Below are positions 16,224 through 49,995 of a stretch of 64,000 nt of DNA, piece after piece. Below the pieces are notes generated by a model. The model was not told the DNA's origin, did not search any database, and was given only the letters and a program-made list of their open reading frames with translations. A program made the translations under genes and the position numbers. Location: positions 89,398 to 153,397 of the forward strand of contig CACZCX010000012.1 of assembly GCA_902779875.1 (NCBI GenBank). The letters are read 5' to 3'. This DNA is from an uncultured Bacteroidales bacterium (GTDB taxonomy: Bacteria; Bacteroidota; Bacteroidia; Bacteroidales; Bacteroidaceae). The stretch's first letter is position 1; each line of letters begins with the position of its first letter.

Positions 16224-16488
16224 CCATCCGGCGGAGACTCGCCGCTTCGCGGCTCGGTTTTCTTTTGACTTTTTGGGCCCTTTGGGCCAAAAGTCCGGGA
16301 CAGGATCCTATCTGCGTATTTGATACACGACCTTTTTTTAGTTTGGGGCGGCGGCGCCCCAAACCCGTTCCATTCCATTTCATTCCATTCCACTCTGCCG
16401 GCCTCCGGCCGGGTAAAACCGAACCCCCGCTTGCTACGCTTGCGAGGGTTTGGTTTTACTGGGTGCAGATGGAAACCTATCTGCGTAT
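16224..16488. repeat. Dispersed hairpin-rich intergenic repeat, copy 1
   Basis: This 265-bp non-coding element fills the gap between the histidine kinase stop and the yceD promoter. In order: CCATCCGGCGG with a GCCGC-TTC-GCGGC hairpin; a 29-base hairpin at 16267-16295 (GACTTTT/AAAAGTC); an invariant 27-base core at 16293-16319 (GTCCGGGACAGGATCC..); a 10-bp stem GTTTGGGGCG/CGCCCCAAAC at 16341-16364; a short ATTCC-rich stretch; CCGGCCTCCGGCCGG; a 16-bp imperfect stem around TTGCTACGCTT at 16415-16457; and an end resembling the core (CCTATCTGCGTAT). The last base overlaps the kinase stop codon. Further copies are at 34685 and 49730. The family is unknown to me. Confidence 0.85.
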
Positions 16489-17639
16489 TATTTAGGAAGC
16501 TCTATACGGAAGGTGGTGCCTTTGGCGAGTTCGGAGTGAGCTACGTAGATCTTGCCTTTGTGGTATTCGGTGACTATGCGCTTGGCCAGCGAGAGGCCCA
16601 GACCCCATCCGCGCTCCTTGGTGGTATAGCCCGGATCGAATATGCTGCGCCATGAATTCTTGGCAATACCCTTGCCTGTATCGGCCACATCAATGACCAC
16701 ATGGTTCTTCTCCTCAGTCAGGGTTATGGTCAGGGTGCCCTTGCCGTTCATGGCATCGACGGCATTCTTGCATATGTTCTCAACGACCCATCCGAACAGT
16801 GAGGCGTTGACCTTGGCGTTGACAGGAGGATTTGGGAATTTACGCACGAACCTGACCGTTGCGGGTGATCGGTGCTCCACGTAGTCAATCACGCCGTCAA
16901 GTACTCCCACCATGTCGGCCTGGACGGGCTCGGGCAGGGATCCTATCTTGGAGAAACGCTCAGCCACCATCTGCAGACGGTCCACATCCTTCTCCATCTC
17001 ACCTATCAGTTCATCGTCATACTTGTCCTTGAGCAGTTCGGTCCAAGCCATAAGTGACGATATAGGTGTTCCGAGCTGATGAGCGGTCTCCTTGGAGAGG
17101 CCCACCCACACGCGGTTCTGTTCTGTCTTCTTGAAACTGAGCAGGGCGAATATGGCTATCAGCACGAACAGGACCACGACGCCCAGCTGGATATAGGGAT
17201 ATACGGTCAGACGGTTAAGCAGCAGAGACTCGTCAAAGCAAACCTCGTTGAAGTGGTTCTTGTCCACATCGCTGTAATAAATCTTTATGGAGTTGCCGAG
17301 AGCGCGCATATGCTCCACATAGTTGCTCAGGAAGGCGAGCGTATCGGCCTTTCTTATCTCTATGTTCTGCCAGCTCTTTATGTCGCCGTCCTCACCTACC
17401 ACTATGATAGGTATGGTCTGGTTGCCGCTTATGACTGACAGCACCAGGCTCAGGTCCGTATTCTCATCGGCATCATCGAGGGTGCGGTAAGCCTCGGCAA
17501 AAAGTTCCATCTTGGAGTGCTCCTCACGCGACAGGTCCTTGACCAGTTGCTGTGAGACGAACAGCGAAGTGATTGCAATTATGATGGCTACGACTATAAG
17601 GACGGTCCTTATGCGTTTGAACTCTCTGAACTTTCTCAT
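16488..17639 (-). CDS. Sensor histidine kinase (PorY-like candidate)
   Basis: A 383-residue membrane kinase. Membrane spans are at about residues 11-30 and 149-168, enclosing a periplasmic sensor of about 118 residues. The H-box is KETAHQLGTPISSL (phosphorylated His about 187), the N-box ENICKNAVDAM, G1 DTGKGIA and G2 GWGLGLSLAKRIV. No response regulator gene is adjacent. Length, topology and the HQLGTP H-box suit PorY, the kinase partner of PorX in T9SS regulation; porX is in this window at 59751. That pairing is an inference; other orphan kinases share this architecture. Its 3' end is fused to repeat copy 1. Confidence 0.9.
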   Translation of the reverse strand: MRKFREFKRIRTVLIVVAIIIAITSLFVSQQLVKDLSREEHSKMELFAEAYRTLDDADENTDLSLVLSVISGNQTIPIIVVGEDGDIKSWQNIEIRKADTLAFLSNYVEHMRALGNSIKIYYSDVDKNHFNEVCFDESLLLNRLTVYPYIQLGVVVLFVLIAIFALLSFKKTEQNRVWVGLSKETAHQLGTPISSLMAWTELLKDKYDDELIGEMEKDVDRLQMVAERFSKIGSLPEPVQADMVGVLDGVIDYVEHRSPATVRFVRKFPNPPVNAKVNASLFGWVVENICKNAVDAMNGKGTLTITLTEEKNHVVIDVADTGKGIAKNSWRSIFDPGYTTKERGWGLGLSLAKRIVTEYHKGKIYVAHSELAKGTTFRIELPK

Positions 17640-17708
17640 TGATTGCGCCGGTTTTTGTGGTCGGCATAGAATAAACGGATTTTAACTCCGCTTATTGTAC
17701 CTTTCCGT

Positions 17709-18503
17709 TCAAAGACCGAAAAGACGTATGGCGTTTTGTGCCGTGAAGTCTGTAACCTCATCTATCCCGCAGCCGTAAACCTGGGCCATGAAGGCGGCGG
17801 TGTTCACTATGAACGAGGGTTCGTTTCGCTTGCCTCTGTGGGGTACGGGCGACAGGTAGGGGCAGTCCGTCTCAAGCACCACCCTCTCCCTGGGGATAAG
17901 CGGCAGCACCTGCGGCAGGGTGGATTTCTTATAGGTAAGCACGCCTCCTATCCCGAACATGAACCCCGGGAATTCCATAAGGGCCAATGCCTCATCGGCC
18001 GTACCTGAGAAACAGTGGAATATTCCCTTGAGAGCGGTGTCACGATATTCCGACATCACTTTATAGAGTTCGTTGAAGGCATCTCTTGAATGGATGATAA
18101 TGGGAAGGTCATACTCCAGCGCCCACTCTATCTGGCATCGGAACGACTCTATCTGGTCATCCAGGCGGGACTTGTCCCAGTAAAGGTCGATTCCGGTCTC
18201 TCCTATCCCGATGAACCTGTGAGGGCCATCCTCCTGCATATCCTCGTCAAGGAGGGCTTTGAGTCCGGCCAGCTGGCCATGGAAATCATCCGAAAGGTCC
18301 TCGGGGTGAAGTCCTATCATGGGACGGCACAGATCCGGCCATGTATCGCATACACGGATCAGGTCAGGAAGTGTCTGGGGATTGACGGCAGGCAGAAGCA
18401 GATATCCCAGACCTGCCTCCCTTGCCCTCTCTATGACCTGAGGCAGGTCGTCGCGGAACGCCTCGTCATAGACATGACAGTGAGTGTCAATCAGTTTTCT
18501 CAC
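17709..18503 (-). CDS. tatD: TatD family metal-dependent hydrolase
   Basis: From a GTG at 18503 (VRKLIDTHCHVYD) the product is 264 residues, the normal TatD length. Metal ligands are visible: DTHCH, GETGIDLYWD, IIIHSRDA, FHCFSG and ETDCPYLSPVPHRGKRNEP. TatD enzymes are Mg-dependent 3'-5' exonucleases, some with D-aminoacyl-tRNA deacylase activity. An upstream in-frame start would add 24 residues lying inside the preceding gene and unlike the family, so I rejected it. The start overlaps the preceding gene by 17 bases. Confidence 0.92.
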   Translation of the reverse strand: MRKLIDTHCHVYDEAFRDDLPQVIERAREAGLGYLLLPAVNPQTLPDLIRVCDTWPDLCRPMIGLHPEDLSDDFHGQLAGLKALLDEDMQEDGPHRFIGIGETGIDLYWDKSRLDDQIESFRCQIEWALEYDLPIIIHSRDAFNELYKVMSEYRDTALKGIFHCFSGTADEALALMEFPGFMFGIGGVLTYKKSTLPQVLPLIPRERVVLETDCPYLSPVPHRGKRNEPSFIVNTAAFMAQVYGCGIDEVTDFTAQNAIRLFGL

Positions 18504-19188
18504 TTGTACGGTAGTAGTATATGAGGCCGTATTCGCGGCAGGCCTTGAGTTTCTTCTCGCCTGTAAGGTCCGCAAAATAGTTCTCTATGGAGTTCCACAC
18601 CTCCAGTATCACCTCATCGACCTGGGGGCGCATGAGCGATACCACCAGCAGGGCCTCATCGGTCAGCTGACGCAGCTCGCACTGCTTGTCATAGAGTTCC
18701 TTGAACAGCTCGTAGTGTACGGCCACCTTGGCTATGGTAGGATTATATATAGGTATGCCACCCTTGCTGTTACGTTCCCTCTCACCTTTTATGGTGTTCT
18801 CGCAGCAACGTATCACAGCTATGTCACTTGACATGTCGGGCAGCTCGCCTGAACTGTCTGGTATGGAGTAGAACTTTCGGTCCGCCGGTTTGATCTCACC
18901 TCTCTTGACACACATGTTGAATACAGTCAGGAAATGCGATACATACATCTTGGCGTTCTTGAGTTTGTTCTGATAGGGCTCCGACTTTGAATAACTGGTC
19001 TGGGCCTCAAGGGACTTGGTGTATCTCTCTACGGCCTCCTTGAACTGGACCAGTTTCTTTTCGGATCGCGAGAACAGCTCCGGTGAGAGCACGGGAGCAT
19101 AGTAGTCACTGGTGCGCATCTTGGTGATGGCAGCCTCGAGTGAGCGGATTCTCGCTTTGTCGGTGTTGGGTAATCTTCGGTAAGGCAT
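18487..19188 (-). CDS. Conserved hypothetical protein, soluble, helical
   Basis: I do not recognise a domain in this 233-residue protein. It is charged and mainly helical, with no signal peptide or membrane span, and has regions such as YYAPVLSPELFSRSEKKLVQFKEAVERY and HYELFKELYDKQCELR. It lies 5 bases after the prenyl synthase stop and overlaps tatD by 17 bases, so it is part of that operon. Its tight packing argues for a real gene. No function is proposed. Confidence 0.75.
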   Translation of the reverse strand: MPYRRLPNTDKARIRSLEAAITKMRTSDYYAPVLSPELFSRSEKKLVQFKEAVERYTKSLEAQTSYSKSEPYQNKLKNAKMYVSHFLTVFNMCVKRGEIKPADRKFYSIPDSSGELPDMSSDIAVIRCCENTIKGERERNSKGGIPIYNPTIAKVAVHYELFKELYDKQCELRQLTDEALLVVSLMRPQVDEVILEVWNSIENYFADLTGEKKLKACREYGLIYYYRTSEKTD

Positions 19189-19193
19189 AGTAA

Positions 19194-20168
19194 TTAAAGG
19201 ACTCTGTATAAAAGGCTGCCGGCATATTCCCTAAGCATTGACTTCTTTTCAAGCGGCAGCTGCACATTATCTAATTTGGACATAGCCTCTTCAAAAAGAG
19301 AGCCTATGAGTTTCTCGGAAAGGTTCTTTACTCCTACGGCGTCATAGATGGCACGTACTCCCGATATCTTGGATTCGGGATCGTCACCGTCATAAAGCGC
19401 CCAGCGGTCCAGTTCAGCCTTCTCAGCCGGGTCTGCAAGCAGATATGCGTTTATATAAAGGAATGTCTTCTTGTTGCATAGAATGTCACCGCCGATCTTC
19501 TTGCCGAACACCTTGGGATCGCCGTAGACATCAAGCAGGTCGTCCTGGAGCTGGAAAGCCAGACCTATCTTCTCACCGAATTCATAGAGAAGACGGCTGT
19601 CACTCTCCGATGCCCCTCCAAGCACGGCACCCATCTGCACGCAGGCAGCCAGAAGGACCGATGTCTTGAGACGTATCATCTCGATATACTCCTTCTCGGT
19701 CACGTCACTGCGTGTCTCGAAATCCATATCATACTGCTGGCCCTCCATGATTCCGGTAAAGGTCTCGTTGGCCAGGTCAAGTATCTGCTTGAGTCGCTTG
19801 GGGTTGGTGAGGGCAAGATAACGGTAGGCCAGCACCAGCATGCCGTCACCGGACAGTATGGCTGTGTTGTCGTTCCACTTCTTGTGTACCGTAGGTTTGC
19901 CGCGGCGCATATCGGCCCTGTCCATAAGGTCGTCATGCAGAAGCGTGAAGTTATGGAATATCTCCATGCCGGCGGCGGTACTGAACACACTCTCAATATC
20001 ATCGGCATACATATTGTAAGCCATGATAAGGAATGTGGGACGTATTCTCTTGCCTCCAAGCGAGAGGACATATCTTATGGGAGCATACAGATCATCAGGC
20101 TGACGTGAGTAATCCAGCGACTGAAGATAGCTCTCAAAACTCTCCTGTATTTGTTTTGCTGATTTCAT
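19194..20168 (-). CDS. Polyprenyl synthetase (farnesyl/geranylgeranyl diphosphate synthase family)
   Basis: From the ATG at 20168 (MKSAKQIQESF) this is a 324-residue trans-isoprenyl diphosphate synthase. The first Asp-rich motif is LLHDDLMDRADMRRGKPTVH and the second is LAFQLQDDLLDVYGD. KRIRP near the N-terminus binds diphosphate. It condenses IPP with allylic diphosphates for quinone or undecaprenyl precursors; chain length cannot be read safely. The -7 box ends 6 bases before the ATG, so the mRNA may be leaderless. It precedes the hypothetical gene and tatD. Confidence 0.93.
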   Translation of the reverse strand: MKSAKQIQESFESYLQSLDYSRQPDDLYAPIRYVLSLGGKRIRPTFLIMAYNMYADDIESVFSTAAGMEIFHNFTLLHDDLMDRADMRRGKPTVHKKWNDNTAILSGDGMLVLAYRYLALTNPKRLKQILDLANETFTGIMEGQQYDMDFETRSDVTEKEYIEMIRLKTSVLLAACVQMGAVLGGASESDSRLLYEFGEKIGLAFQLQDDLLDVYGDPKVFGKKIGGDILCNKKTFLYINAYLLADPAEKAELDRWALYDGDDPESKISGVRAIYDAVGVKNLSEKLIGSLFEEAMSKLDNVQLPLEKKSMLREYAGSLLYRVL

Positions 20169-20174
20169 CAGATG

Positions 20175-20206
20175 CAAAAATAACAAGATGTTCCGAAAAC
20201 ACGCAA
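20175..20206 (-). promoter_or_regulatory. Prenyl synthase promoter (TTG - 21 - TATTTTTG)
   Basis: On the minus strand TTG (20206-20204) and TATTTTTG (20182-20175) fit the consensus. Only six bases separate the box from the ATG at 20168, which puts the transcription start at or beside the start codon. Confidence 0.65.
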
Positions 20207-20217
20207 CAAAACGAATA

Positions 20218-20251
20218 TAAAAAAACGAAGGGGCCGGAAGCGGCCCCTTCG
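20218..20251 (-). terminator. Strong rho-independent terminator after tonB copy 1
   Basis: A perfect 10-bp stem (CGAAGGGGCC/GGCCCCTTCG) with a six-base loop is followed on the minus strand by seven T. It separates the tonB gene ending at 20273 from the prenyl synthase promoter. Confidence 0.85.
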
Positions 20252-20272
20252 CATTTAAGTCATTTCCCCGTA

Positions 20273-20959
20273 TCAGTTCAGGCGGAAGTTTACAGGTACG
20301 GTGTATTTTACACGTACGGGTTTACCACGCTGTGAACCGGGCTTCCAGTTAGGCATTGTAGAGATAACTCGGAGGGCCTCCTTGTCAAGTGACGGGTTAA
20401 CGCTCTTGACAACCTCAGGCTCTACGATAGCTCCATCCTTATTTACGATGAAGGTTACCAGTACACGACCCTGGATATTGTTCTCACGGCAGATAGCCGG
20501 ATACTTTATGTTCTTTCTCAGATACTCCAGAAGAGCTGCAGTACCGCCGGGGAACTCAGGCTGGTCCTCAACGACCATGAATACCTCTTCCTCCTGGGGC
20601 TCCTCCTCAACCTCGATAACGTCCATCTCGGTAAGGTCAACCCACTCTGTGTTATCCTCGGTAGAAGCCATGATGTCCTCTTCAACATCGGCATCGTCCT
20701 CTACGATCTCGATGATCTCAGCCTTTGTTACAGCTGCAGGGGGAGGGGGAACTGTCTTCTTTTCCGGCAGTGTGATAGGAACCATCTCCTCATTCAGAGA
20801 TACATCCCTTGCCGCAAAGATCTCGGAGTTGTCCTCAACCTCTCTCTGTGTCCACTCGAGCGCCACGAACATGACTGCCAGAGCCATCACGAAACCAATC
20901 AGGAGAGAGGTTCCTTTTCCCTTCTCAAGATCTGCGTTTTCAGACTTTTTGATTTCCAT
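20273..20959 (-). CDS. Energy transducer TonB family protein (copy 1)
   Basis: A 228-residue TonB-type protein with one N-terminal membrane span (LLIGFVMALAVMFVALEW), a short Pro stretch (PPPPAAV), an acidic linker, the VVEDQPEFPGG motif and a C-terminal TonB domain (IKYPAICRENNIQGRVLVTF, ending PVNFRLN). TonB couples the proton-motive force to outer-membrane receptors. The linker is acidic and short rather than the long Pro-rich spacer of E. coli TonB, as is common in Bacteroidota. It is a clear tandem paralogue of the gene at 21159. No ExbB/ExbD genes are nearby. Confidence 0.92.
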   Translation of the reverse strand: MEIKKSENADLEKGKGTSLLIGFVMALAVMFVALEWTQREVEDNSEIFAARDVSLNEEMVPITLPEKKTVPPPPAAVTKAEIIEIVEDDADVEEDIMASTEDNTEWVDLTEMDVIEVEEEPQEEEVFMVVEDQPEFPGGTAALLEYLRKNIKYPAICRENNIQGRVLVTFIVNKDGAIVEPEVVKSVNPSLDKEALRVISTMPNWKPGSQRGKPVRVKYTVPVNFRLN

Positions 20960-21158
20960 AATTATTAATAGTTTAGTTTTTAGGCGTTTTTATTATGTTC
21001 GGGCAAAAATACTACTCTTTTTTCATCCCGAAAAACCAAAGGCCATTTTTGTGTATTTTTAATACTTGCAAGGTTCTCTTCAGTTCCTTGTTTCAGACAT
21101 GTAAACGGAGCAGTTCCCCGAATACGTCTCCCAACCACAGAGATATTTTCTCCGAAAA

Positions 21159-21848
21159 TCAGTTCAGGCGGAAGTTCACCGGCACGGTGAATTTTACCCT
21201 TACGGGCTTGCCGAACTGCAGACCGGGTTTCCATTTAGGCATGTTCGAGATGACTCTGAGGGCCTCCTTGTCAAGCATGGGATTGACGCTCTTTACCACC
21301 TCGGGCTCCACGATAGAGCCGTCCCTGTTCACTATGAAGACTACCACTACCCTTCCCTGGATATTGTTCTCACGGCAGATAGCCGGATACTTGATATTCT
21401 TGCTCAGATACTCATACAGAGCAGCCGCTCCGCCGGGAAACTCGGGCTGGTCCTCGACGACCGTGTACGGGACATCATCCACAGGCTCGGGCTCGACTTC
21501 GATGATATCGATCTGCGTGAGGTCAACCCAATCGTTGCTGTTGTCATCGGGCGAAGCCGGCATATCTTCAATGATATCGGCATCATCATCAATTATCTCA
21601 ATGATCTCTGCCTTCGTCACAGCTGCAGGAGGAGGGGGTACGGTCTTTTTCTCCGGCAGTGTAACGGGAACCAGTTCCTCGTTAAGGGTTACATCAACAA
21701 CGGTGTAGAGTTCAGAGTTGTCAACCACCTCCCTCTGGGTCCACTCAAGAGTAACGAACATGACAGCAAGGGCCATCGTGAATCCGATCAGCAGAGAAGT
21801 CCATTTACCCTTCTCAAGATCTACGCGCTCAGATTTCTTTGTTTCCAT
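21159..21848 (-). CDS. Energy transducer TonB family protein (copy 2)
   Basis: A 229-residue paralogue of the downstream gene, with the same architecture: membrane span LLIGFTMALAVMFVTLEW, PPPPAAVTKAEIIEI, an acidic linker, VVEDQPEFPGG and a TonB C-terminal domain ending PVNFRLN. The TonB domain and N-terminus are nearly identical between copies, while the linker differs. The 199 bases between them hold no gene, and the strong terminator lies only after copy 1, so they could be one transcript or two. Tandem duplication is the likely origin. Confidence 0.92.
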   Translation of the reverse strand: METKKSERVDLEKGKWTSLLIGFTMALAVMFVTLEWTQREVVDNSELYTVVDVTLNEELVPVTLPEKKTVPPPPAAVTKAEIIEIIDDDADIIEDMPASPDDNSNDWVDLTQIDIIEVEPEPVDDVPYTVVEDQPEFPGGAAALYEYLSKNIKYPAICRENNIQGRVVVVFIVNRDGSIVEPEVVKSVNPMLDKEALRVISNMPKWKPGLQFGKPVRVKFTVPVNFRLN

Positions 21849-22067
21849 AATCGCTCGTTTTTAAGTTAGTTACTACAAACAAGGCTCTCTCTTTGTTCCC
21901 CGTTTCTGTCTTGAAAACGGGCCCCTTAGGGCAGTACGTCATAAAAACGGAATAAAAAACCTTTATGAAGGTTAAAGAAAATTCCACGCCACCATTTGTA
22001 TCGGTTTGACTATTAAAAACGTTATAAATAAAGGTATGTTCAATGCGTTTTAATAAATTTGTTCCCG

Positions 22068-23054
22068 ATGAAGAGAAATCTCCTGACATTAGCGTTGGCT
22101 TCAATCCTTATGATAGGGGCAAATACTGTCCAGGCACAGAGTCTGGAGAGTTCCTTTGAGTTTCTCAAACTGCCTGTATCAGCCCACAGCTCTTCATTGG
22201 GCGGACGTGCCGTATCCCTTTTTGACGCCGATCCCCTGCTCTACATAGCCAACCCCGCTTCACTATCGGCCAATGAGAGCCGTATGCTTGGACTCAACGC
22301 CATGACATGGTTCTCAGGCACCACTGTTGCAGGCGCCCAGTACAGCAACCGTTTTGACGAGCGCTCCCATTTTGCCTTCAACGCCCGATACGTGAGTTAC
22401 GGAAGAATGAAGGAGACCGCTGCCGACGGCACCGTAACCGGGACCTTTACGGCCAAGGACATGGCGGTAGGAGCGTCATGGGCCTATATGCTTACTGACA
22501 ACCTGAGCGGCGGAGTGACCGCCAACCTCATAACATCCCGTTACGGCTCCATGTCATCGGTTGCCATAGGAGTGGACCTTGGACTGATATGGATAGCCGA
22601 TGAAGGCCTCACTTTGGGACTTGCCGCCACCAATCTGGGCGGTCAGATCAAGGCCTTCGAGAACACATTCCAGAAACTGCCGTCCGACCTCTGCGCCGGT
22701 GTGAGCTGGAAACCCGAGCACGCGCCGCTGCGATTCACCCTCTCCATGGACAACCTGACCCGCTGGGACTCGGATGACTTCTATTTCGGCCAGGATGATG
22801 ACAAGGGATTCGGCGAGATACTCAAACGTCACATATCACTCGGTGCGGACCTGTGTCTGACCGAGCGTTTCTACATAGCCATGGGCCTTAACCTCCGTAC
22901 ACGTGCCGAGATGGCGGGAAAGGGGAACAAAGGCTTTACCGGAATGTCCATCGGTACCGGTCTGCGCTTAGGCAAGATCATGTTTGACCTCTCCTATGGC
23001 AAGTACCAGGTATCGGAGTCATCATTAATCTGCAACTTTGCATTCAGCATATGA
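22068..23054 (+). CDS. porQ: Type IX secretion system protein PorQ
   Basis: A 328-residue outer-membrane beta-barrel protein with a signal peptide ending VQAQ, followed by [19 protein letters not shown], characteristic of the PorQ/PorV (PorP-like) family. The strands alternate and the chain ends in an aromatic residue near the C-terminus (NFAFSI). In P. gingivalis PorQ cooperates with PorU, PorV and PorZ at the T9SS attachment complex. I used the ATG at 22068 rather than the TTG nine bases upstream. Its stop overlaps the cmk start (ATGA, 23051-23054). The porQ-cmk-ispH unit is typical of Bacteroidales. Confidence 0.9.
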
Positions 23055-24597: not shown

Positions 24598-24695
24598 CAC
24601 AGCCAAATTATCTATATAAGTTAGGAATAGTGATTTTTGATTGTTTGCAAACTTTGTTTGTATCATTATTTATTAACTGTTTAATTAACAAAAAA

Positions 24696-33584: not shown

Positions 33585-34679
33585 ATGGAACATCCCGAGA
33601 ACAGCGACGAATACAAAGGACTGACCGTGAACAGCGGTGTTGTCAGCCCGGGCAGCATCAACCCATACCTCAAGGGACGCCGCAAAAGCCGTCCCGTTCT
33701 CTCAGTCCAGGATTATGTCGACGGCATAATCAAGGGTAACGTGACCGTCCTCAGCCAGGCCGTCACCCTGGTGGAGAGCCTCAAGCCCGAACATCAGGCC
33801 ATCGCCCAGGAGGTTATAGAGAAGTGTCTTCCCTACTCCGGCAACTCGGTGCGCATAGGCATAAGCGGTGTTCCCGGCGCAGGCAAGAGCACCAGTATCG
33901 ATGCATTCGGACTCCATGTCCTCAAAGACGGCGGCAAACTTGCCGTACTGGCCATCGACCCCAGTTCAGAGCGCACCAAAGGCAGCATACTGGGTGACAA
34001 GACACGCATGGAGCGTCTGGCCGTGCACCCCAAGGCATTCATACGCCCCAGCCCGGCGGCCGGCTCACTGGGTGGCGTGGCACGCAAGACCCGTGAGACC
34101 ATAGTGCTCTGTGAGGCTGCAGGTTTTGACAAGATATTCGTAGAGACTGTAGGTGTGGGACAGAGTGAGACTGCCGTACACTCCATGGTTGACTTCTTCC
34201 TGCTCATACAGCTGGCCGGCACAGGTGATGAACTCCAGGGCATAAAGCGCGGCATCATGGAGATGGCCGACGGCATAATCATAAACAAGGCCGATGGTGA
34301 CAACGCCCCCAAAGCCGAACTGGCGGCCAGTTCCTTCCGTAACGCACTCCACCTCTTTCCGCCATCGGAGAGCGGCTGGACTCCGCAGGTCCTCACATAT
34401 TCCGGTTTCTATGAGATCCGCATCAAAGAGGTCTGGGATATGGTGTGGTCATATATGGATTTCGTAAAGAAAAACGGCTACTTCCAGTACCGCCGCAACG
34501 AACAGGCCAAATACTGGATGCATGAGACCATAAGGGAATCCCTGCGCAACGGATTCTACAACGACCCGGAGATTGCGGCCCGCCTCAACGAATACGAGCA
34601 GCAGATACTCGGCGGACAGCAGACATCTTTCGCTGCTGCTCAAAAACTTCTGAATCTCTACTACTCTAAAAAGGGATAG
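33585..34679 (+). CDS. meaB: Methylmalonyl-CoA mutase-associated GTPase MeaB (ArgK family)
   Basis: A 364-residue G3E-type GTPase. The P-loop is GISGVPGAGKSTSIDAFG, followed by LAIDPSSERTKGSILGDKTRM, RPSPAAGSLGGVARKTRE, the ETVGVGQSE switch and NKADGDN (G4). MeaB protects and reloads cobalamin in methylmalonyl-CoA mutase. The mutase subunits, often adjacent elsewhere, are not in this window. It is 2 bases after the membrane protein gene. Repeat copy 2 begins 5 bases after its stop codon. Confidence 0.93.
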   Translation: MEHPENSDEYKGLTVNSGVVSPGSINPYLKGRRKSRPVLSVQDYVDGIIKGNVTVLSQAVTLVESLKPEHQAIAQEVIEKCLPYSGNSVRIGISGVPGAGKSTSIDAFGLHVLKDGGKLAVLAIDPSSERTKGSILGDKTRMERLAVHPKAFIRPSPAAGSLGGVARKTRETIVLCEAAGFDKIFVETVGVGQSETAVHSMVDFFLLIQLAGTGDELQGIKRGIMEMADGIIINKADGDNAPKAELAASSFRNALHLFPPSESGWTPQVLTYSGFYEIRIKEVWDMVWSYMDFVKKNGYFQYRRNEQAKYWMHETIRESLRNGFYNDPEIAARLNEYEQQILGGQQTSFAAAQKLLNLYYSKKG

Positions 34680-34684
34680 TTTTT

Positions 34685-34919
34685 CCATCCGGCGGAGGCT
34701 CGCCGCTTCGCGGCTCGGCTGTTCTTGACATTCTTGGCCTTCGGCCTCGCATGTCCGGGACAGGATCCTATCTGCGTATCAGGTACACGACATTTTTTGC
34801 AGGTGGACACGCAGGTGAGTACGTATTGGAGCGAGTGAGGCCACGAACGAGACCGCGGTCCCGGAGGGCCGCCAAGCGGAATGGAATGGAGCGCGTTTGC
34901 AGAGCAAACTAAAAAAAGG
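34685..34919. repeat. Dispersed hairpin-rich intergenic repeat, copy 2 (rearranged)
   Basis: The first half matches copies 1 and 3: CCATCCGGCGG with the GCCGC-TTC-GCGGC hairpin, the 29-base hairpin at 34727-34755 (here GACAT/ATGTC), and the identical 27-base core at 34753-34779. After about 34796 it diverges. Its end (about 34876-34919) matches the C block of copies 1 and 3 in inverted orientation: on the minus strand CCTTTTTTTAGTTTG, then CTCCATTCCATTCC, with the stem replaced by GTTTGC/GCAAAC. It occupies most of the 346-base gap between meaB and tRNA-Gln. Confidence 0.75.
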
Positions 34920-34942: not shown

Positions 34943-34943
34943 T

Positions 34944-35059
34944 CCTGCCTTTCCTGGTTCGAGTCCGGGTAGCCCAGCCCAGAAAAAAAGAATAGAGGCG
35001 CCTACTTGCGTCTCTATTCTCTGGGCTGGGCTACCCGGACTCGAACCAGGAAAGGCAGG
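34944..35059. repeat. Inverted duplication of the 3' half of tRNA-Gln
   Basis: A 40-bp arm at 34944-34983 (plus strand, starting CCTGCCTTTCCTGGTTCGAG) is the perfect reverse complement of 35020-35059, the 3' half of the tRNA-Gln gene plus six bases downstream. The 36 bases between are the tRNA terminator hairpin, so the locus is a quasi-palindrome of about 116 bp. Left and right differ only by an A run next to the terminator. The left copy lacks the acceptor 5' side, D-arm and anticodon and cannot be a tRNA. Confidence 0.85.
34983..35019 (-). terminator. tRNA-Gln terminator
   Basis: On the minus strand an 11-bp stem (GAATAGAGACG/CGCCTCTATTC with one G-T pair, eight-base loop) is followed by seven T. 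It starts 7 bases after the tRNA 3' end and is the centre of the inverted duplication. Confidence 0.8.
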
Positions 35060-35096
35060 ACCAGAATCTGCAGTGTTACCATTACACCATAGCCCA
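35026..35096 (-). tRNA. tRNA-Gln (anticodon CTG)
   Basis: The minus strand folds as a 71-base tRNA. The acceptor is TGGGCTA/TAGCCCA with U1-A72 and discriminator G73, as expected for Gln. The D-arm is GTGT/ACAC with GG in the loop. The anticodon loop is TTCTGGT (anticodon CTG), and its stem GCAGA/CCTGC has an A-C mismatch next to the loop. The T-arm has GGTTCGAGTCC. CCA is not encoded. Confidence 0.93.
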
Positions 35097-42167: not shown

Positions 42168-43447
42168 GTAACAGAACCATATATACCTTGACTTTAGCCT
42201 TGGCTCTGACCTCAGGCGGTTTGTCAGCCCAGGAGCAGCAGGATGCCCCGGAGATTGACATGCCTGTTGACACCACGGCTGTCTGTCTGGACTCCCTGAG
42301 CCTGGAACTGCCCGAGAGCATGAACTTTGATGTGGACAGCCTCATGTTTCTCTGGCACGCCAAGCAGTTCTCCTATGACCAGGACTGTCTGGAGAGCTCC
42401 ATCAACCCCAAATTCAGCGACACGGTCTATGCCGAGCGTCTGAGCTCCCTCCCCACCATTGTGGAGATGCCCTACAACTACGTGACCCGCAACTCCATCG
42501 ACGCATATATGGGTCGTAACCGCAACGTGATATCATTCGCGCTGGGTGTGCTCCCCGTGTATGAGGACATATTCGTGGAGGCCCTCATGAAATATAACGT
42601 ACCCATAGAACTCAAATATCTGCCCATAGTTGAGTCAGCCCTCAAGCCGAGAGCCTACTCGCGCGCCGGCGCCGCCGGTATGTGGCAGTTCATATACTCC
42701 ACCGGACGCAAGTACGGACTCTACGTGAACAGCCTGGTCGATGACCGCTATGATATAATAAAGGAGTCCGATGCCGCCGCACGCCACCTTCGTGACCTCT
42801 ATGACATGTTCGGAGACTGGTCGCTGGCCATATCGGCCTATAACTGCGGTCCGGGCAACATCACAAAAGCCATCACCCGCTCAGGCGGCAAGCACGACTT
42901 CTGGGACCTCTATCCCTACCTGCCCCGTGAGACCCGCGGCTATCTGCCGGCTTTCATCGCCGTCAACTACGCCATGAGTTTCTATCAGGAGCACGGAATC
43001 TGCCCCATGGAGTCAGCCCGTCCGCCCCAGACCGACACCCTCCATGTAAGCAAGAACCTACATATAGGACAGCTCACCCACTATTGCGGCATAACAGAGG
43101 CTGAGTTCAAGGCGCTCAACCCGCAGTACCTGACCGAGGTCATACCGGGAGCCTACCGCACCTGTGTCCTGACCCTGCCTCAGCAGTATATACGTCCGCT
43201 TGTGGAGGCCGGTGATTCCCTTTACGAGTATGACAAGGAGAAGTTCTTCCCCAAGTCCAAGCTGGCTTACATTGATGACGACATGAAGAACCGCGTGACC
43301 TACGTGACCCACAAGATCAAGTCAGGCGAGACGCTCGGCTCCATAGCCATCAAGTACCACACCACCGTAAAGAACATCAAGAACTGGAACAACCTTAAGA
43401 GTGACAATATCAGGGCCGGTAAGACCTTGAGGATATATAACCGATAA
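42164..43447 (+). CDS. Membrane-bound lytic murein transglycosylase (MltD-like) with LysM
   Basis: A 427-residue exported protein: signal peptide, SLT domain at about 130-270 (catalytic Glu in LPIVESALKPRAYSRAGAAGMWQF; AISAYNCGPGNITKAI), and a C-terminal LysM (THKIKSGETLGSIAIKYHTT..WNNL). It cleaves peptidoglycan glycan strands to make anhydro-muropeptides during wall remodelling. There is no lipobox, so it may be soluble in the periplasm rather than anchored like E. coli MltD. It is co-transcribed with the upstream genes (4-base overlap). Confidence 0.93.
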   Translation: MSNRTIYTLTLALALTSGGLSAQEQQDAPEIDMPVDTTAVCLDSLSLELPESMNFDVDSLMFLWHAKQFSYDQDCLESSINPKFSDTVYAERLSSLPTIVEMPYNYVTRNSIDAYMGRNRNVISFALGVLPVYEDIFVEALMKYNVPIELKYLPIVESALKPRAYSRAGAAGMWQFIYSTGRKYGLYVNSLVDDRYDIIKESDAAARHLRDLYDMFGDWSLAISAYNCGPGNITKAITRSGGKHDFWDLYPYLPRETRGYLPAFIAVNYAMSFYQEHGICPMESARPPQTDTLHVSKNLHIGQLTHYCGITEAEFKALNPQYLTEVIPGAYRTCVLTLPQQYIRPLVEAGDSLYEYDKEKFFPKSKLAYIDDDMKNRVTYVTHKIKSGETLGSIAIKYHTTVKNIKNWNNLKSDNIRAGKTLRIYNR

Positions 43448-43461
43448 AAAGTTCAGGCAAG

Positions 43462-45702
43462 ATGAGTGAAGATAATCTTTTTTCGCCCGATGAAGAAAGA
43501 CTCATAGATGAGGCCTTCCAGCATCTTATTGACTCCTATCTCCAGACCAAGCACCGCAAGAAGGTGGAGATAATCACCAAGGCGTTCCAGTTTGCGCGTC
43601 AGGCCCATAAGGGTGTGCGCCGCCATTCAGGAGAGCCCTACATCATGCACCCGCTGGCCGTGGCGCAGATTGTCTGTTCTGAGATAGGACTCGGATCCAC
43701 CTCCATCTGCTCCGCCCTGCTCCATGACGTGGTCGAAGATACCGACTACACCACCGATGACATAAAGAACGTGTTCGGTCCCAAGATCGCCCAGATCGTG
43801 GACGGACTCACCAAGATAGCCGGCGGCATATTCGGCGACAAGGCATCGGCCCAGGCCGAGAACTTCAAGAAGCTGCTGCTCACCATGAATGACGATATAC
43901 GCGTGATCCTCATCAAGATTGCCGACCGTCTTCATAACATGCGTACCCTGGACAGCATGCAGCCCCGCAAGCAGTATAAGATAGCAGGTGAGACTCTGTA
44001 CATATACGCCCCCCTGGCCTACCGTCTGGGACTCAACCAGATCAAGACTGAACTCGAGGACCTGAGTTTCAAGTACGAGCATCCCGCCGAGTACAGGGAC
44101 ATACAGGAAAAGCTGAACTTCTCACGCGAGGAGCTGAACAACATATACGACGAATTTACCGCCCCCATAACCGAGAAGCTCGATGAGCTGGGTGTCAAGT
44201 ACAAGATGTTCGGCCGTATCAAGTCACCCTACTCCATCTGGAAGAAGATGAACAAGAACAATCTTACTTTCGATGAGGTGTATGACATCCTGGCTGTAAG
44301 AATCGTGTTCGACCCCACATCGCCCGATAAGGAGAAAAGCGAGTGCTTTGACATCTATCTGGCGCTGACCAAGATATACAAGTCACATCCCGACCGTCTG
44401 CGTGACTGGCTCACCAACCCCAAGGCCAACGGCTACCAGGCTCTCCACGTGACCCTGATGAGCAACTCAGGCCAGTGGGTAGAGGTTCAGATCCGCAGCC
44501 GCAGGATGAACGACATAGCCGAGCAGGGTATCGCAGCACACTGGAAGTATAAGGACGGTTCCTCCTATGAGGAGGATGAGACCGAACTCACCCACTGGCT
44601 GGAGACCATCAAGGAAATACTTGAGGACCCACAGCCTGACTCCATGGATTTCCTGGATACCATAAAGCTCAACCTCTACTCATCGGAAATATTCATATTC
44701 ACCCCCAAGGGCGAGCTGCGTACCATGCCGCAAGGCAGTACCGTACTTGACTTTGCATTCACCATACACACCTTCATGGGCACCAACTGCATAGGCGCCA
44801 AGGTGAACCACAAGCTGGAGGCCATCAACTACGAGCTCAAGAGCGGTGACCAGGTTGAGATTCTCACATCCAAATCACAGAAGATCAACCCCGAGTGGCT
44901 CGACTTCGTGACTACCGCCAAGGCCCGCGGCAAGATCAAGCAGATACTGCGCAAGGAGGAGCGTGCCAACCAGAAATTCGGTGAGGCCATATTCCATGAG
45001 TTCCTGGAGAAGGAGGACATGCAGATTGACTCCGACAAGATGGAGCGCATATGCCGTCTTCACGGCATGAACAACCGTGACGAGCTTATGGTTGCACTCG
45101 GCCAGAAGAAGATCATATTGGGTGATGCCGAGCGTAATATTATAAAAGGTGAGAGTGAGAGCTGGTACCGCAGGTTCTGGTCATCGTTCTCATCGTCCTC
45201 ATCGAAAGATAAGGATAAGGATAGTTCCGATAACAGCCAGTCCAGCGTTGATGTCAAGAAGACACTCATCATCAACGACATGGATATGCACAAATATACG
45301 TTCGCGCCCTGCTGTAACCCTGTACCGGGCGATGCCGTGCTGGGTTTTGTCGATGAGAAGGGTCATATAACCATCCACAAGCGCAAGTGCGAGATGGCCA
45401 ACAAGCTCAAGTCAGGCAAAGGCAACCGCATACTGACTGTGGAGTGGCAGATTGAGAACAGCCTGTTCCCCGTATCCATCTATATCAAGGGCCTGGACAG
45501 CATAGGAACGCTGAGTAAGGTCACCGATGTCATATCGGGCAAGATGAACGTGAATATCAACAAGCTTGTGATTGAATCCAAAAAGGGACTCTTTGAAGGT
45601 ACCATAAGCGTCATGGTCCACAGCCTGGGTGACGTGGATACCATTCAGAAGGAACTCAAGAAAATCAAGAATATCACAACGGTTGTCCGCAAGGAGGAGT
45701 AG
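43462..45702 (+). CDS. rel: Bifunctional (p)ppGpp synthetase/hydrolase (Rel/SpoT)
   Basis: A 746-residue RSH enzyme controlling the stringent response. The N-terminal HD hydrolase has its metal motifs (HPLAVAQIV, LLHDVVEDT), so hydrolysis should be active, unlike E. coli RelA. The synthetase domain (about 240-350) includes GRIKSPYSIWKKM and VYDILAVRIVF. TGS (IFIFTPKGELRTMPQGSTVLDFAF), a CC region (APCCNPVPGD) and a C-terminal ACT domain follow. It is the last gene of the parA unit; its 3' end overlaps the convergent MerR gene by 29 bases. Confidence 0.96.
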   Translation: MSEDNLFSPDEERLIDEAFQHLIDSYLQTKHRKKVEIITKAFQFARQAHKGVRRHSGEPYIMHPLAVAQIVCSEIGLGSTSICSALLHDVVEDTDYTTDDIKNVFGPKIAQIVDGLTKIAGGIFGDKASAQAENFKKLLLTMNDDIRVILIKIADRLHNMRTLDSMQPRKQYKIAGETLYIYAPLAYRLGLNQIKTELEDLSFKYEHPAEYRDIQEKLNFSREELNNIYDEFTAPITEKLDELGVKYKMFGRIKSPYSIWKKMNKNNLTFDEVYDILAVRIVFDPTSPDKEKSECFDIYLALTKIYKSHPDRLRDWLTNPKANGYQALHVTLMSNSGQWVEVQIRSRRMNDIAEQGIAAHWKYKDGSSYEEDETELTHWLETIKEILEDPQPDSMDFLDTIKLNLYSSEIFIFTPKGELRTMPQGSTVLDFAFTIHTFMGTNCIGAKVNHKLEAINYELKSGDQVEILTSKSQKINPEWLDFVTTAKARGKIKQILRKEERANQKFGEAIFHEFLEKEDMQIDSDKMERICRLHGMNNRDELMVALGQKKIILGDAERNIIKGESESWYRRFWSSFSSSSSKDKDKDSSDNSQSSVDVKKTLIINDMDMHKYTFAPCCNPVPGDAVLGFVDEKGHITIHKRKCEMANKLKSGKGNRILTVEWQIENSLFPVSIYIKGLDSIGTLSKVTDVISGKMNVNINKLVIESKKGLFEGTISVMVHSLGDVDTIQKELKKIKNITTVVRKEE

Positions 45703-46039
45703 CGTCAAGCTCCTCAAGGATAGCCATAAGCTCCTCACGCACAGCTTTAAGACGCTCCACTACGTCATGTGAGTCAGTAGTGGTCTGCGGATTCTCCTTG
45801 ATACGGGTCTTGGCACCCTTTATGGTCAGGGACTTCTCCTTTACCAGATGGTTCACCAGCTTTATCTGCTCAATATCCTGAGCGGTATAATGCCTTACGC
45901 CCTTGGCGTTCTTCTTGGGAGATATCTCCTTGAACTCCTTTTCCCAATAGCGCAGCGTACTCTCGGGGATCTCAAGCATATCGGAGACCTCCTTGATAGA
46001 GTAATATTTCTTAAGGACCTTGTTGGGATTAAGTGCCAT
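45674..46039 (-). CDS. MerR family transcriptional regulator
   Basis: From MALNPNKVLKKYYSIKEVS at 46039 the product has 121 residues. The winged helix-turn-helix is typical of MerR (YYSIKEVSDMLEIPESTLRYWEKEF, then GVRHYTAQDIEQIKLVNHLV), followed by a short coiled coil. There is no effector-binding domain and no metal-binding cysteine cluster. It is directly downstream of the M23 peptidase gene (1-base gap), as in other Bacteroidales near alaS. Its targets are unknown. Confidence 0.88.
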   Translation of the reverse strand: MALNPNKVLKKYYSIKEVSDMLEIPESTLRYWEKEFKEISPKKNAKGVRHYTAQDIEQIKLVNHLVKEKSLTIKGAKTRIKENPQTTTDSHDVVERLKAVREELMAILEELDATPPCGQPL

Positions 46040-46040
46040 A

Positions 46041-47009
46041 TCAGTCAAATACTTTACCGTGATTCTCAGCCAGATTAACCATCTCCTCGTACTGCTCGGC
46101 ATCCAGGTCCATGAAGTAGTAATTGATGGGGTTCACGTCACTGCTACCCACAATCACCTCATAATGGACATGGGGACCCGTACTCTTACCTGTCGAACCA
46201 GCCTTGGCTATCTCCTCGCTGCGAACCACCTTCTGGCCCTCCTTGACCAGTATCTTGCTCAGGTGGGCGTACCTTGTTTTGTAACCGTAGCCGTGGTCGA
46301 TCTCAACCAGGTTGCCGAATCCGGTCTTCCATCGGGCATAGACCACCTTACCGTTACCTGTGGCATAAACAGGAGTACCGGTATCACATGCAAAGTCCAT
46401 TCCGTGATGGAATCGGCGTACGTGATATATGGGGTCGTTACGCCATCCGTAACCGGAAGCCGTACGTTTAAGATCCTTGTTCGATACCGGCTGGATGGCA
46501 GGTATGCAGGCCAGTTTGTCCTCCTGCTCACGTGACAGCTCCACTACCTCGTTGAAGGAGCGGGTCTGCATGTAGAGCTTTTTCTCGAGCATATCGACCT
46601 TCTGTGACGTGCTGATCACCAACTGAGCGTTGGAGAGGTCGTTGAGTTCGGCATAACGGTTGGTGCCGTTGAATCCGGCCTGTCTTACGTTCTCCGGCAC
46701 GGGATCGGCCTCAAGGAGCACGCGGTAGAGATTGTCGTCACGCTCCTCTATGTCATGGAGCACCAGAAGCGCGTCATCAACCTTACGCGAAAGCACGCGG
46801 TACTGGGACTGAAGACGGCTGTTCTCCTCAATGAGGTCACCCATCTGGGGGGTGCTGATGGCGAACCAGTAGATGATAAAGAATACTCCGCCCAGTATGA
46901 CTGCCAGGAGCAGTCTCCATACCCAGGACATGAATCTCTGTCCTATGGTCGGGAAGACCCTGCGGTAAACCCTGCGGTTCGGATCGTACTGATAGTAAAC
47001 TTTTCTCAT
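46041..47009 (-). CDS. M23 family metallopeptidase, membrane-anchored
   Basis: A 322-residue protein with one N-terminal membrane span (about 30-50), a periplasmic coiled coil (about 60-170) and a C-terminal LytM/M23 domain (HHGMDFACDTGTPVYATGNG; HGYGYKTRYAHLSKILV; GPHVHYEVIVGSSDVNPI). The Zn ligands HxxxD and HxH are present, so it could cleave peptidoglycan cross-links or activate an amidase. It leads the MerR gene and is divergent from alaS. Confidence 0.93.
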   Translation of the reverse strand: MRKVYYQYDPNRRVYRRVFPTIGQRFMSWVWRLLLAVILGGVFFIIYWFAISTPQMGDLIEENSRLQSQYRVLSRKVDDALLVLHDIEERDDNLYRVLLEADPVPENVRQAGFNGTNRYAELNDLSNAQLVISTSQKVDMLEKKLYMQTRSFNEVVELSREQEDKLACIPAIQPVSNKDLKRTASGYGWRNDPIYHVRRFHHGMDFACDTGTPVYATGNGKVVYARWKTGFGNLVEIDHGYGYKTRYAHLSKILVKEGQKVVRSEEIAKAGSTGKSTGPHVHYEVIVGSSDVNPINYYFMDLDAEQYEEMVNLAENHGKVFD

Positions 47010-47079
47010 CTTACAGGTGCAAATTGCTGTTACACTATATTTAATAATGTGGCAACACGCAAAAGTAGCGAAAAAGCAT

Positions 47080-47087
47080 TACCTTTG
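47080..47087 (+). promoter_or_regulatory. alaS promoter -7 box (TACCTTTG)
   Basis: TACCTTTG matches the consensus and lies 31 bases before the alaS ATG. The -33 box is not clear. Confidence 0.55.
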
Positions 47088-47118
47088 CAAACCCAAACGC
47101 AAATAACACACTTAAGAT

Positions 47119-49728
47119 ATGATGACAGCAAAGGAAATACGTGATTCCTACAAGCGTTTCTTTGAGAGCAAAGGACACCTGATTGTCCCGTCAGCCCCTA
47201 TGGTAGTCAAGGATGACCCCACACTTATGTTCACCAATGCCGGAATGAACCAGTTCAAGGATATCATTCTGGGAAACCGCGCCCCGCAGAGCCGTCGCGT
47301 AGCCGATTCGCAGAAGTGTCTGCGTGTAAGCGGCAAGCACAACGACCTGGAGGAGGTAGGTCACGATACCTACCACCACACCATGTTCGAGATGCTGGGT
47401 AACTGGTCTTTCGGTGATTATTTCAAGAAAGAGGCTATCAGCTGGGCATGGGAGTATCTGGTCGACGTCCTTAAACTCGATCCCAAGAACCTCTACGCTA
47501 CCGTATTCGAAGGCAGCAAGGAGGAGGGTCTGGAGCGCGACAACGAGGCTGCTGCCATCTGGGAGCAGTACCTCCCCAAGGATCATATCCTGAACGGTAA
47601 CAAGCATGACAACTTCTGGGAGATGGGCGATACAGGTCCCTGCGGCCCATGCAGCGAGATCCATATGGACTCACGCTCCGATGAGGAGAAGGCAGCCGTA
47701 CCCGGACGCGAGCTGGTAAACAAGGACCATCCCCAGGTTATCGAGATATGGAACCTTGTGTTCATGCAGTACAACCGCAAGGCCGACCACTCACTGGAGC
47801 CCCTGCCCGCCAAGGTTATCGATACCGGTATGGGATTCGAGCGTCTGGTACGTACACTCCAGGGCAAGCAGTCCAACTATGACACCGACGTGTTCCAGCC
47901 CATCATCAAGGAGATAGGCAAACTCACCGGCAAGCAGTACGGTAAGGATGAGAAGATTGACATAGCCATGCGCGTTGTGGCAGACCACATACGTACCATC
48001 GCATTCTCCATCACCGACGGCCAGCTGCCTTCAAACGCCAAGGCCGGTTATGTGATCCGCCGTATCCTGCGCCGTGCAGTACGTTACGCCTACACATTCC
48101 TTGGTCAGAAGGAGGCCTTCCTCTACAAGCTTCTGCCCGCCCTCATAGAGAATATGGGTGAGGCCTATCCCGAGCTCGGCGCTCAGAAGGTTCTCATTGA
48201 GAAGGTCATCATTGAGGAGGAGGAGTCATTCCTCCGCACCCTGGAGACCGGCATAAAGATGCTTGACAAGGTCATGTCCGATGCCAAGGCAGCCAATTCA
48301 ACTGTCATAAGCGGTGTGAATGCATTCACGCTCTACGATACTTACGGATTCCCGCTTGACTTGACCGAGCTCATACTTCGTGAGAACGGCATGACCGTCA
48401 ACATTGACGAGTTCAACGCCGAGATGGCCAAGCAGAAGGCCCGCGCCCGTAACGCCGCCGCCGTTGAGAACGGTGACTGGGTTGTCCTCAAGGAGGGCGA
48501 GACCGAGTTCGTAGGTTATGATTTCACTGAGTACGAGACCTCCGTTCTGCGCTACCGCGAGGTTAAGCAGAAGAGCGGCGTCATATACCAGATTGTACTT
48601 GACAAGACTCCCTTCTATGCTGAGATGGGCGGTCAGGTAGGTGACACCGGCGTCATAGTAAGCGAATTCGAGACTATAGAGATCATAGACACCAAGAAGG
48701 AGAACGGACTCCCCATACATATCACCAAGAAGCTCCCCGAGCATATGGATGCTCCCATGATGGCTTGCGTCGACACCGACAAGCGTCGTGCCTGCGAGGC
48801 CAACCATACCGCCACCCACCTGCTCGACGAGGCCCTGCGTGAGGTACTCGGCTCACATGTTGAGCAGAAGGGATCACTCGTAACACCCGACGGCCTCAGG
48901 TTTGACTTCTCACATTTCCAGAAGGTGACCGATGAGGAGCTGCGCCAGGTTGAGCGTCTGGTCAATGAGAAGATCCGTGAGGACCTGCCCCTGCAGGAGC
49001 ACCGTGACCTGCCTATCGAGGAGGCCAAGAAGCTCGGCGCCATTGCACTGTTCGGTGAGAAATACGGTGACAAGGTCCGCGTGGTACAGTTCGGTAACTC
49101 CATAGAGTTCTGCGGTGGCGTACACGCCTCCTCAACCGGCCGTATCGGCATGTTCAAGATTACATCGGAGAGCTCAATCGCTGCAGGCGTACGCCGTATC
49201 GAGGCTCTTACCGGCCAGGCTGTAGAGGATATGGTCGCTTCACTCCAGGATACCATCGGATCTCTCAAGGCCCTGCTGCCCGGCACTTCACTTGAGGCAT
49301 CGGTCAAGAAGGCAATTGAAGAGAACGCATCACTCAAGAAACAGCTTGAGGAGTTCCAGAAGGAGAAAGCCGGCCAGCTCAAGGGTAATCTGATCGCTCA
49401 GGCAAAAGAGATAAACGGCGTAAAGGTAATCAGCGCAGTCATATCAGCATCGGCCGCTATGGCTAAGGATCTGGTATTCGGCATACGCGGAGAACTGACC
49501 ACAGGCACTGTCGTAATCATCGGCAGCCAAGAAGCCGGCAAGCCTATGCTTACCGTCAGCGTCAGCGATGACCTCACAGCCCGCTTCAACGCAGGCCAGA
49601 TGGTTCGCGAGGCAGCCAAGCTCATCCAGGGCGGTGGCGGCGGCCAGCCTCACTTTGCAACCGCCGGCGGCAAGAACGCTGAGGGTCTGCAGGCTGCTGT
49701 GGATTCTCTCCTCAAAACTATAGGATAA
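47119..49728 (+). CDS. alaS: Alanine--tRNA ligase
   Basis: An 869-residue class II synthetase charging tRNA-Ala. The aminoacylation core has [16 protein letters not shown] (motif 1), PCGPCSEIH and the motif 3 Arg region. The editing domain has the zinc motif [14 protein letters not shown] and [13 protein letters not shown], and the C-terminal DHHA1 domain contains [14 protein letters not shown]. Length is normal. The repeat at 49730 starts one base after the stop. Confidence 0.98.
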
Positions 49729-49729
49729 A

Positions 49730-49995
49730 CCATCCGGCGGGGACTCGCTGCTTCGCGACGCTCGGTCTATTTTTGACTTTCTTGGCCTACGGCCTTGAAA
49801 GTCCGGGACAGGATCCTATCTGCGTATCAGGTACACGACATCTTTTTAGTTTGGGGCGGCGGCGCCCCAAACCCGTTCCGCGGGATAAATCCCGCTCCAC
49901 TCTGCCGGCCTCCGGCCGGGTAAAACCATCCCCTCGCTTGCTACGCTTGCGAGGGGATGGTTTTACTGAGTGCAACTGGAAACCCATTTGCGTAT
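49730..49995. repeat. Dispersed hairpin-rich intergenic repeat, copy 3
   Basis: This 266-bp copy is collinear with copy 1 and fills the gap between alaS and the convergent helicase. Blocks: CCATCCGGCGG with CTGCTTCGCG; the 29-base hairpin at 49775-49803 (GACTTTC/GAAAGTC); the invariant 27-base core at 49801-49827; the 10-bp stem GTTTGGGGCG/CGCCCCAAAC; CCGGCCTCCGGCCGG; and a perfect 16-bp stem AAAACCATCCCCTCGC around TTGCTACGCTT (49922-49964). The copy 1 version of the last stem differs, but by paired changes. Confidence 0.85.

Follow-up and report, generated by a model that had tools for sequence, protein, structure and literature searches.

A modular family of dispersed repeats in an uncultured gut Bacteroidales genus whose hairpin shape appears to be under selection

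Among the dispersed repeats of bacteria, REP and REPIN palindromes are paired with a Y1/RAYT gene. BOX of Streptococcus pneumoniae is described as a non-autonomous repeat that is composed of boxA-boxB-boxC modules and dispersed in spacers, and SPRITE, also from pneumococcus, as one 18-bp duplex with a U-rich tract (PMC3049150). Here we describe a hairpin-rich intergenic repeat that occurs in three copies in a 64,000-nucleotide stretch of DNA from an uncultured Bacteroidales bacterium (hereafter the window; G000:C12:89398-153397, contig CACZCX010000012.1), the source genome of which comprises 2.1 Mb in 74 contigs. The repeat is best read as a modular DNA repeat family of ~265 bp with ~7 hairpins in the slots A-B-core-D-V-P-E-F, non-autonomous and dispersed. 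We call it a new family, no description of it having been found in the open-access literature or in Rfam, and its hairpin shape appears to be under selection, because the letters change between copies in ways that keep the hairpins.

Covariation and apparent selection on pairing

Structure counts were made on 90 copies from 12 of the 15 genomes that were positive in a blastn search with copy 3 of the window (80 regions plus the window, G008 contributing only 13). In the long hairpin E, 96.1% of 855 stem cells were paired across 48 copies of the subtype D1 (see below), and 13 of the 18 pairs showed double changes, one of them with all four Watson-Crick types (14/12/11/9). None of 500 shuffles reached either the real paired percentage or the real covariation score, and pairing fell to 47% when the stem was slid by one column. 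Over 79 copies, 1084 of 1185 E-stem cells were Watson-Crick pairs. For a tree-aware null we wrote our own R-scape-like procedure, which reassigns substitutions along a FastTree tree, and ran 200 null sets with equal per-pair cut-offs. Nine of 15 scored E pairs passed (69 copies), compared with 0 of 450 other pairs, and so did two of nine pairs in hairpins A and B (51 copies), compared with 0 of 222. When the cut-off was tightened to the all-pairs one, four of 15 pairs remained in E and one of nine in A/B, with none among the other pairs; at a plain p of 0.05, the non-stem pairs that pass number nine for E and four for A/B. The original prediction had proposed selection on pairing from the window copies, and this proposal is supported by the shuffles of E and by the tree-aware null for E and A/B pairs.

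Comparison of same-subtype copies at shared sites pointed in the same direction. Among 31 such pairs, changes in E were double with pairing retained in 59 cases, single in 70 and of other kinds in 17. In L061 and L089_4871, which account for 6 of the 27 changed pairs, E was misread by the search pattern; the other 21 changed pairs gave 56 double-paired, 21 single and 10 other changes, same-site pairs not being independent of one another. On A1, the 77-row MAFFT alignment of the 5' half, RNAalifold predicted no pair; since this alignment does not place hairpin B correctly, hairpins A and B were tested by their arms. An excess of G.T over A.C in A and B was tried as a candidate strand signal and rejected: it came from loose patterns, and the recount leans the opposite way without being significant.

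Distribution, modules and exchange between copies

Used as a blastn query against its own genome, copy 1 found 10 places with E values from 1e-155 to 3e-17, which excludes a chance origin of the window copies. Copy 3 gave blastn matches in 15 of 37 genomes of the genus and in none of 24 genomes of other families (at most 12 candidates were scored per genome in many genomes). A search with the profile R1, a sequence-only model of the 5' half built from 77 rows, yielded 145 matches, some of them partial, in 16 of the 37 genus genomes, with 1-47 per genome and 47 in G008; it had no match in 246 other genomes of the order (E 1e-7, stricter filters; 166 genera, three same-family genomes). In these searches the family is thus confined to a single genus of uncultured gut Bacteroidales. 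Relatives traced by way of the kinase-like neighbour of copy 1 were uncultured Bacteroidales/Bacteroidaceae genomes, many of them from rumen, horse and deer. No match to copy 3 was obtained by blastn against phages and plasmids, the Rfam search of the window at gathering score returned only two tRNAs and no family match to the repeat, and a permissive Rfam search of copy 3 gave two matches, both sub-threshold.

With its patchy occurrence, its 1-47 copies per genome and its species-specific variants, the family looks like a spreading repeat. An ordinary miniature inverted-repeat transposable element under neutral drift, the paired stems of which would be a memory of insertion and copying, would share the restriction to one genus, the patchiness, the location in spacers, the copy-number bursts and the truncated copies; covariation beyond the tree-aware null and the double changes at shared sites speak against it, as does the lack of noticeable target duplications at junctions read by eye, and we consider it most improbable.

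In the orientation of the window copies, many copies start with CCATSCGGCGG. Hairpins A (CTC-5 bp-TCGG) and B come next, separated by a T-rich stretch, and then the core, which closes with TATCTGCGTAT and is followed by ~7 consecutive T. Behind hairpin D stand the variable module V, the GC-rich P and the long E (GTAAAAC...GTTTTAC), before the end TGGGTGCARCTGGAAACC, behind which related tails often lie. Slot D defines the subtypes D1 (GTTTGGGGC..GCCCCAAAC; 55/90 copies) and D2 (GTTTCCTTCTGGAAAC; 31/90), with 4/90 copies belonging to neither. Truncated copies occur as well, for example L111, L117, L123, L124 and L353. Slot V is filled by an ordinary hairpin or by an (ATTCC)n-like stretch. Read on the opposite strand, it is flanked by GNA..GNA in 47 of the 48 parsed D1 copies (of 52), and the remaining one has TGA. 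Such flanks would allow sheared G.A contacts. A proposal built on them, which we judge very unlikely, is that the opposite-strand transcript would be a selfish or domesticated structured RNA, a 3'-end/intercistronic module shared by many unlinked genes that folds via base pairs and the conserved GNA/GNA contacts and is bound by one putative protein, which co-regulates the genes and/or copies the element via an RNA intermediate.

The three window copies (Table 1) are all real and lie where the original prediction had placed them, and their identical 27-base core, the 29-base hairpin ahead of it and the two double compensatory changes between copies 1 and 3 in the last long stem could all be read as described. 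The E stem of copy 1 is not perfectly paired, because it contains one G.T and one A.C-type mismatch. The shared ordered set of hairpins holds for copies 1 and 3; copy 2 follows this order only over its first half, because its second half is inverted and belongs to the other subtype (85% over 61 bp, E 2.6e-14). Copy 2 is thus a mosaic of a forward 5' half and an inverted D2 half. The reported contacts with stop codons, two at copy starts and one at the end of copy 1, are present. The gene upstream of copy 3, which we take from its sequence to encode an alanyl-tRNA-synthetase-like protein (alaS), is convergent with a helicase-like gene (50025-51470, -). Beside copy 2, a perfect 41-bp inverted repeat (34943-34983 / 35020-35060) contains part of a tRNA-Gln gene region, duplicated and inverted, and could represent a rearrangement or an assembly fold-back.

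Table 1. Copies of the repeat and their parts in the window.
Feature	Position	Strand	Remark
Copy 1, complete, subtype D1	16224..16488	+	3' end meets stop of histidine-kinase-like gene (16488-17639, -)
Copy 1 hairpin A	16241..16253	+	GCCGC-TTC-GCGGC
Copy 1 hairpin B	16267..16295	+	29 nt
Copy 1 core	16293..16319	+	27 bases
Copy 1 hairpin D	16341..16364	+	D1 type; CGGCGGCG loop region found only in copies of the window genome
Copy 1 module V	16365..16397	-	(GGAAT)n-like on - strand; normal hairpin in this slot in other copies
Copy 1 hairpin P	16398..16412	+	CCGGCC-TCC-GGCCGG
Copy 1 hairpin E	16413..16459	.	GTAAAAC...GTTTTAC
Copy 1 end hairpin F	16463..16486	+	
Copy 2, 5' half only (A, B, core)	34685..34798	+	begins 5 nt after stop of gene 33585-34679
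Copy 2 hairpin A	34702..34714	+	
Copy 2 hairpin B	34727..34755	+	29 nt
Copy 2 core	34753..34779	+	27 bases
Inverted D2-type half (P-V-D) behind copy 2	34860..34919	-	D stem GTTTGC/GCAAAC, not GTTTCC/GGAAAC
Copy 3, complete, subtype D1	49730..49995	+	begins 1 nt after stop of gene 47119-49728
Copy 3 hairpin A region	49747..49761	+	
Copy 3 hairpin B	49775..49803	+	29 nt
Copy 3 core	49801..49827	+	27 bases
Copy 3 hairpin D	49849..49872	+	D1
Copy 3 module V	49880..49895	+	base-paired form GCGGGA..TCCCGC
Copy 3 hairpin P	49905..49919	+	
Copy 3 hairpin E	49920..49966	.	
Copy 3 end hairpin F	49970..49993	+	

An invariant single-stranded core, as the window copies had suggested, does not extend to the family. 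Of the eight complete copies in the window genome, six have CCGGGACAGGA at the core, the forms listed from other genomes mostly end in TGGAA, and TATCTGCGTA is the part that is widely kept across the family; the identity in the window is thus partly a species signature, or species-level homogenisation. The exact 23-base core had no match in genome-contig and viral-contig collections, which fits a core private to the window species. The loop CGGCGGCG behaves similarly: it occurs in every one of the 7 D1 copies in the window genome and in none of the 44 found elsewhere (Fisher 9e-9), and several of the copies that carry it sit at sites that are occupied in other species. The 58 same-site pairs had a mean identity of 0.81, compared with 0.77 for pairs from within one genome and 0.75 for the rest, and in 17 of the 58 the subtype differed. 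At one site in two species, L086 (G005) and L100 (G019) share 153 identical bases, then L100 has a 74-base insert, behind which follow 45 identical bases, different E stems, each of them paired, and a similar end. We infer that one hairpin was replaced whole at this site.

The insert in L100 is a clean 74-base insertion, and its use as proof that derived copies had spread was dropped. Inserts of ~75 bases are shared by four G019 loci, and a different insert by six G008 copies. The ~75-bp inserts in L095, L097, L100, L102 and L176 (G019) and in L115 (G022) share GTTAAGCC-like and TCGTGGCG-like motifs, with one class read in inverse and two stem versions, ACAGAG/CTCTGT and ATAAAG/CTTTAT; they are possibly a second small structured mobile repeat.

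Genomic position, termination and mobility

According to a simple open reading frame (ORF) caller, 52 of the 90 copies lie between convergent genes (52 of 85 where both neighbours are known), the others being in '--' (21), '++' (7) or '-+' (5) contexts or having one side unknown (5). Element-free spacers of the same loci, a baseline that includes false gaps, were convergent in only 12 of 147 cases (Fisher p 4e-18 versus copies, rows not being independent). Of the 62 copies that follow a sense gene, 42 have their 5' end 10 nt or less from its stop codon; of the 75 that face an opposing gene downstream, 19 have their 3' end equally close to the stop codon of that gene. Of the 3'-end or terminator role that had been suggested for the window copies, the position at gene 3' ends is therefore strongly supported, while a role in termination is not supported. 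A strict scan of 41 convergent spacers detected a terminator inside the element in 13 (+ strand) and 12 (- strand), with 10 of 41 having one outside it; copy 3 contains none, and copy 1 has three against 0.9 expected. A GC stem with a T-run at once behind it, as in an intrinsic terminator, was thus found only in a minority of these spacers.

These data bear on the possibility that the element is a terminator cassette serving the host, in which A would end transcription of the left gene and E would serve the convergent pair in both directions. The location behind stop codons and in convergent spacers fits this proposal, and so do the counts for whole spacers, in which a terminator was present on the + strand in 19/41 and on the - strand in 19/41 with the element, compared with 21 and 16 of 61 in element-free ones. 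In some relatives a plain hairpin with a T-run (e.g. G010, by eye) replaces the element behind alaS, and in G019 and G021 a lone E-F hairpin lies between folB-like and dnaA-like genes. Conversely, T-tails are short (TTTTAC), and copies sit between hisG, hisD and hisC, gene names that we assign from sequence; their position inside an operon argues against strong termination. Terminator features are thus present but weak, and we regard a host-serving cassette as doubtful. The lone E-F hairpin has extended arms (CCCAGTAAAAC...GTTTTACTGGG) in L356 and L357 (G021/G019), the folB-like gene having been scanned in L356 and the dnaA-like gene in L357.

Among the 21 genomes compared at the his operon, copies occupy the hisG-hisD spacer in G008, G019 and G033 and the hisD-hisC spacer in G008 and G033, the hisC side of G019 being unreadable; in the remaining genomes the hisD-hisC spacer, inspected by eye, is short or holds unrelated repeats. 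The his operon spacers are an insertion hot spot inside an operon. Across L243-L263 they contain different repeat families by species (ATTGAGAATTGAAAATT runs, TAGCCAATAGCCAACAGCC runs, GGGGTCAGACCCC hairpins), and five hisD matches in G031, G014, G034 and G016 (L264-L267, G016:C16) hold one in-frame TGA. Behind alaS, where neighbours differ among 30 genomes, the element is present in G000 and G008, inverted in G021 and reduced to a start remnant in G013, and G010 and several others have the plain hairpin (by eye). Another inverted repeat (GGGTCTC..., ...GAGACCC) lies behind alaS in L136, L143 and L152 (G006, G020 and G011), with a shorter, diverged form in L155 (G033). About half of 30 loci at the kinase site were readable, and most of these have short spacers; GTTTCC is still present at the G022 junction, and in G019 the site is occupied by a D2 copy that carries an insert.

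The dispersal with copy-number bursts, the very stable fold of the DNA strand (copy 3, z -8.5) and the occurrence of both element orientations at the alaS site would also be expected of a single-stranded-DNA mobile element, in which a transposase or recombinase recognises hairpins in one DNA strand, as in IS200/IS605-, REP- or attC-like systems, and covariation reflects selection for mobility. The distribution of Y1 transposase genes does not follow that of the repeat: they were not found in the copy-bearing genomes G007, G009, G010, G019, G026 and G033 and are present in 13 of 21 genus genomes without profile matches, all of these genomes being incomplete. When 30 Y1 loci were read, 12 carried another REP-like motif and one contained a motif of the element. 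Moreover, E stems are mostly intact (the 1084 of 1185 cells given above), although truncated copies exist. Overall, we consider this explanation unlikely, though not far-fetched. The other motif, of the GGGACGGTTC type, was seen at the Y1 (RAYT-like) loci L215, L216, L221, L223-L225, L227, L228, L232, L238, L240 and L241, and together with them is likely to be a REP system of the genus. From a search of the 37 genus genomes with a 3'-end pattern, eight ends without a nearby profile match were read, and among ten of their neighbouring ORFs none had a transposase as its best family.

The explanation that we prefer, and to which we give about an even chance, is a dispersed, non-autonomous repeat of the BOX-like kind, in which copies exchange sequence with one another, selection maintains the hairpins and the fold acts in neighbouring transcripts. 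Its chief competitors are single-stranded-DNA mobility and the terminator cassette. New loci would be seeded in trans by separate machinery, and recombination between repeats would later exchange sequence among copies. A copy behind a stop codon would be tolerated or useful, its hairpins acting in the transcripts of neighbouring genes, at mRNA 3' ends and in the spacers of co-transcribed genes, perhaps as attenuators or end-protecting structures, and mutations that unpair the stems would be removed in place. The choice posed initially between an RNA element and a mobile element is a false one, as the family has the look of a spreading repeat and shows structural constraint as well.

Several observations weigh against this explanation. 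The strand signal is weak (31 A.C events versus 17 G.T, p 0.06), and of the two strands the - strand gives the better fold in only 35 of 82 copies. No transposase partner was found among Y1 genes and the ORFs next to lone 3' ends, a search that did not extend to IS110, TnpB or tyrosine recombinases. Target duplications were not seen at the alaS, kinase and his junctions, which were read by eye only, and inspection of junctions in the same manner found no consistent terminal repeat; GTTTCCA...TGGAAAC frames the G008 hisD-hisC copy, and is absent from most of the 5' ends that were inspected. The inserts in G019 and G008 may reflect a nested repeat that inserted several times independently, and not spread of the element. 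In 70 of 107 directed tests, the median same-genome copy was no closer than the orthologue, which indicates that vertical descent dominates at many sites; in the other 37 it was closer, and from this split we conclude that vertical descent and exchange both act.

Comparison with described repeats

In this family the fold is kept more than the sequence, which makes it a clear example from nature of a bacterial repeat of this kind. Because many species carry copies at the same site, the effects of mutation, gene conversion and structural selection can be told apart, and the covariance signal provides a means to test what repeats of this sort do at the 3' ends of mRNAs.

The family resembles REP and REPIN (PMC8049555, PMC3733652) as a palindromic spacer repeat that forms within-genome populations with possible effects on mRNA, and differs from them in size (~265 bp instead of 20-40 bp) and in that the Y1 genes of the genus adjoin another hairpin family at 12 of 30 loci. 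By its length and by the Y1 distribution, it is thus not a 20-40 bp palindrome with a Y1/RAYT gene. ERIC and Correia elements resemble it as structured spacer repeats able to affect transcripts (PMC3049150), and differ in that terminal inverted repeats and target duplications are not established in the present family. With BOX, it shares several spacer copies without coding capacity, although a mechanical ORF list has ORFs crossing copies, and the variation of modules inside a constant frame, here as D1/D2 exchange, forms of V and inserts. BOX is likewise a modular dispersed spacer repeat that is non-autonomous, would be folded if transcribed, and varies in the presence and number of its modules (PMC3049150). 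Compared by description rather than by sequence, the present family has more hairpin slots, substitution of whole hairpins within a slot and genus-wide covariation. SPRITE shares with the present family an enrichment near gene 3' ends and a terminator-like character (PMC3049150), and differs as a single 18-bp duplex with a U-rich tract from the ~7 hairpins and short T-tails seen here. The nearest described things are the BOX and SPRITE repeats of pneumococcus (PMC3049150).

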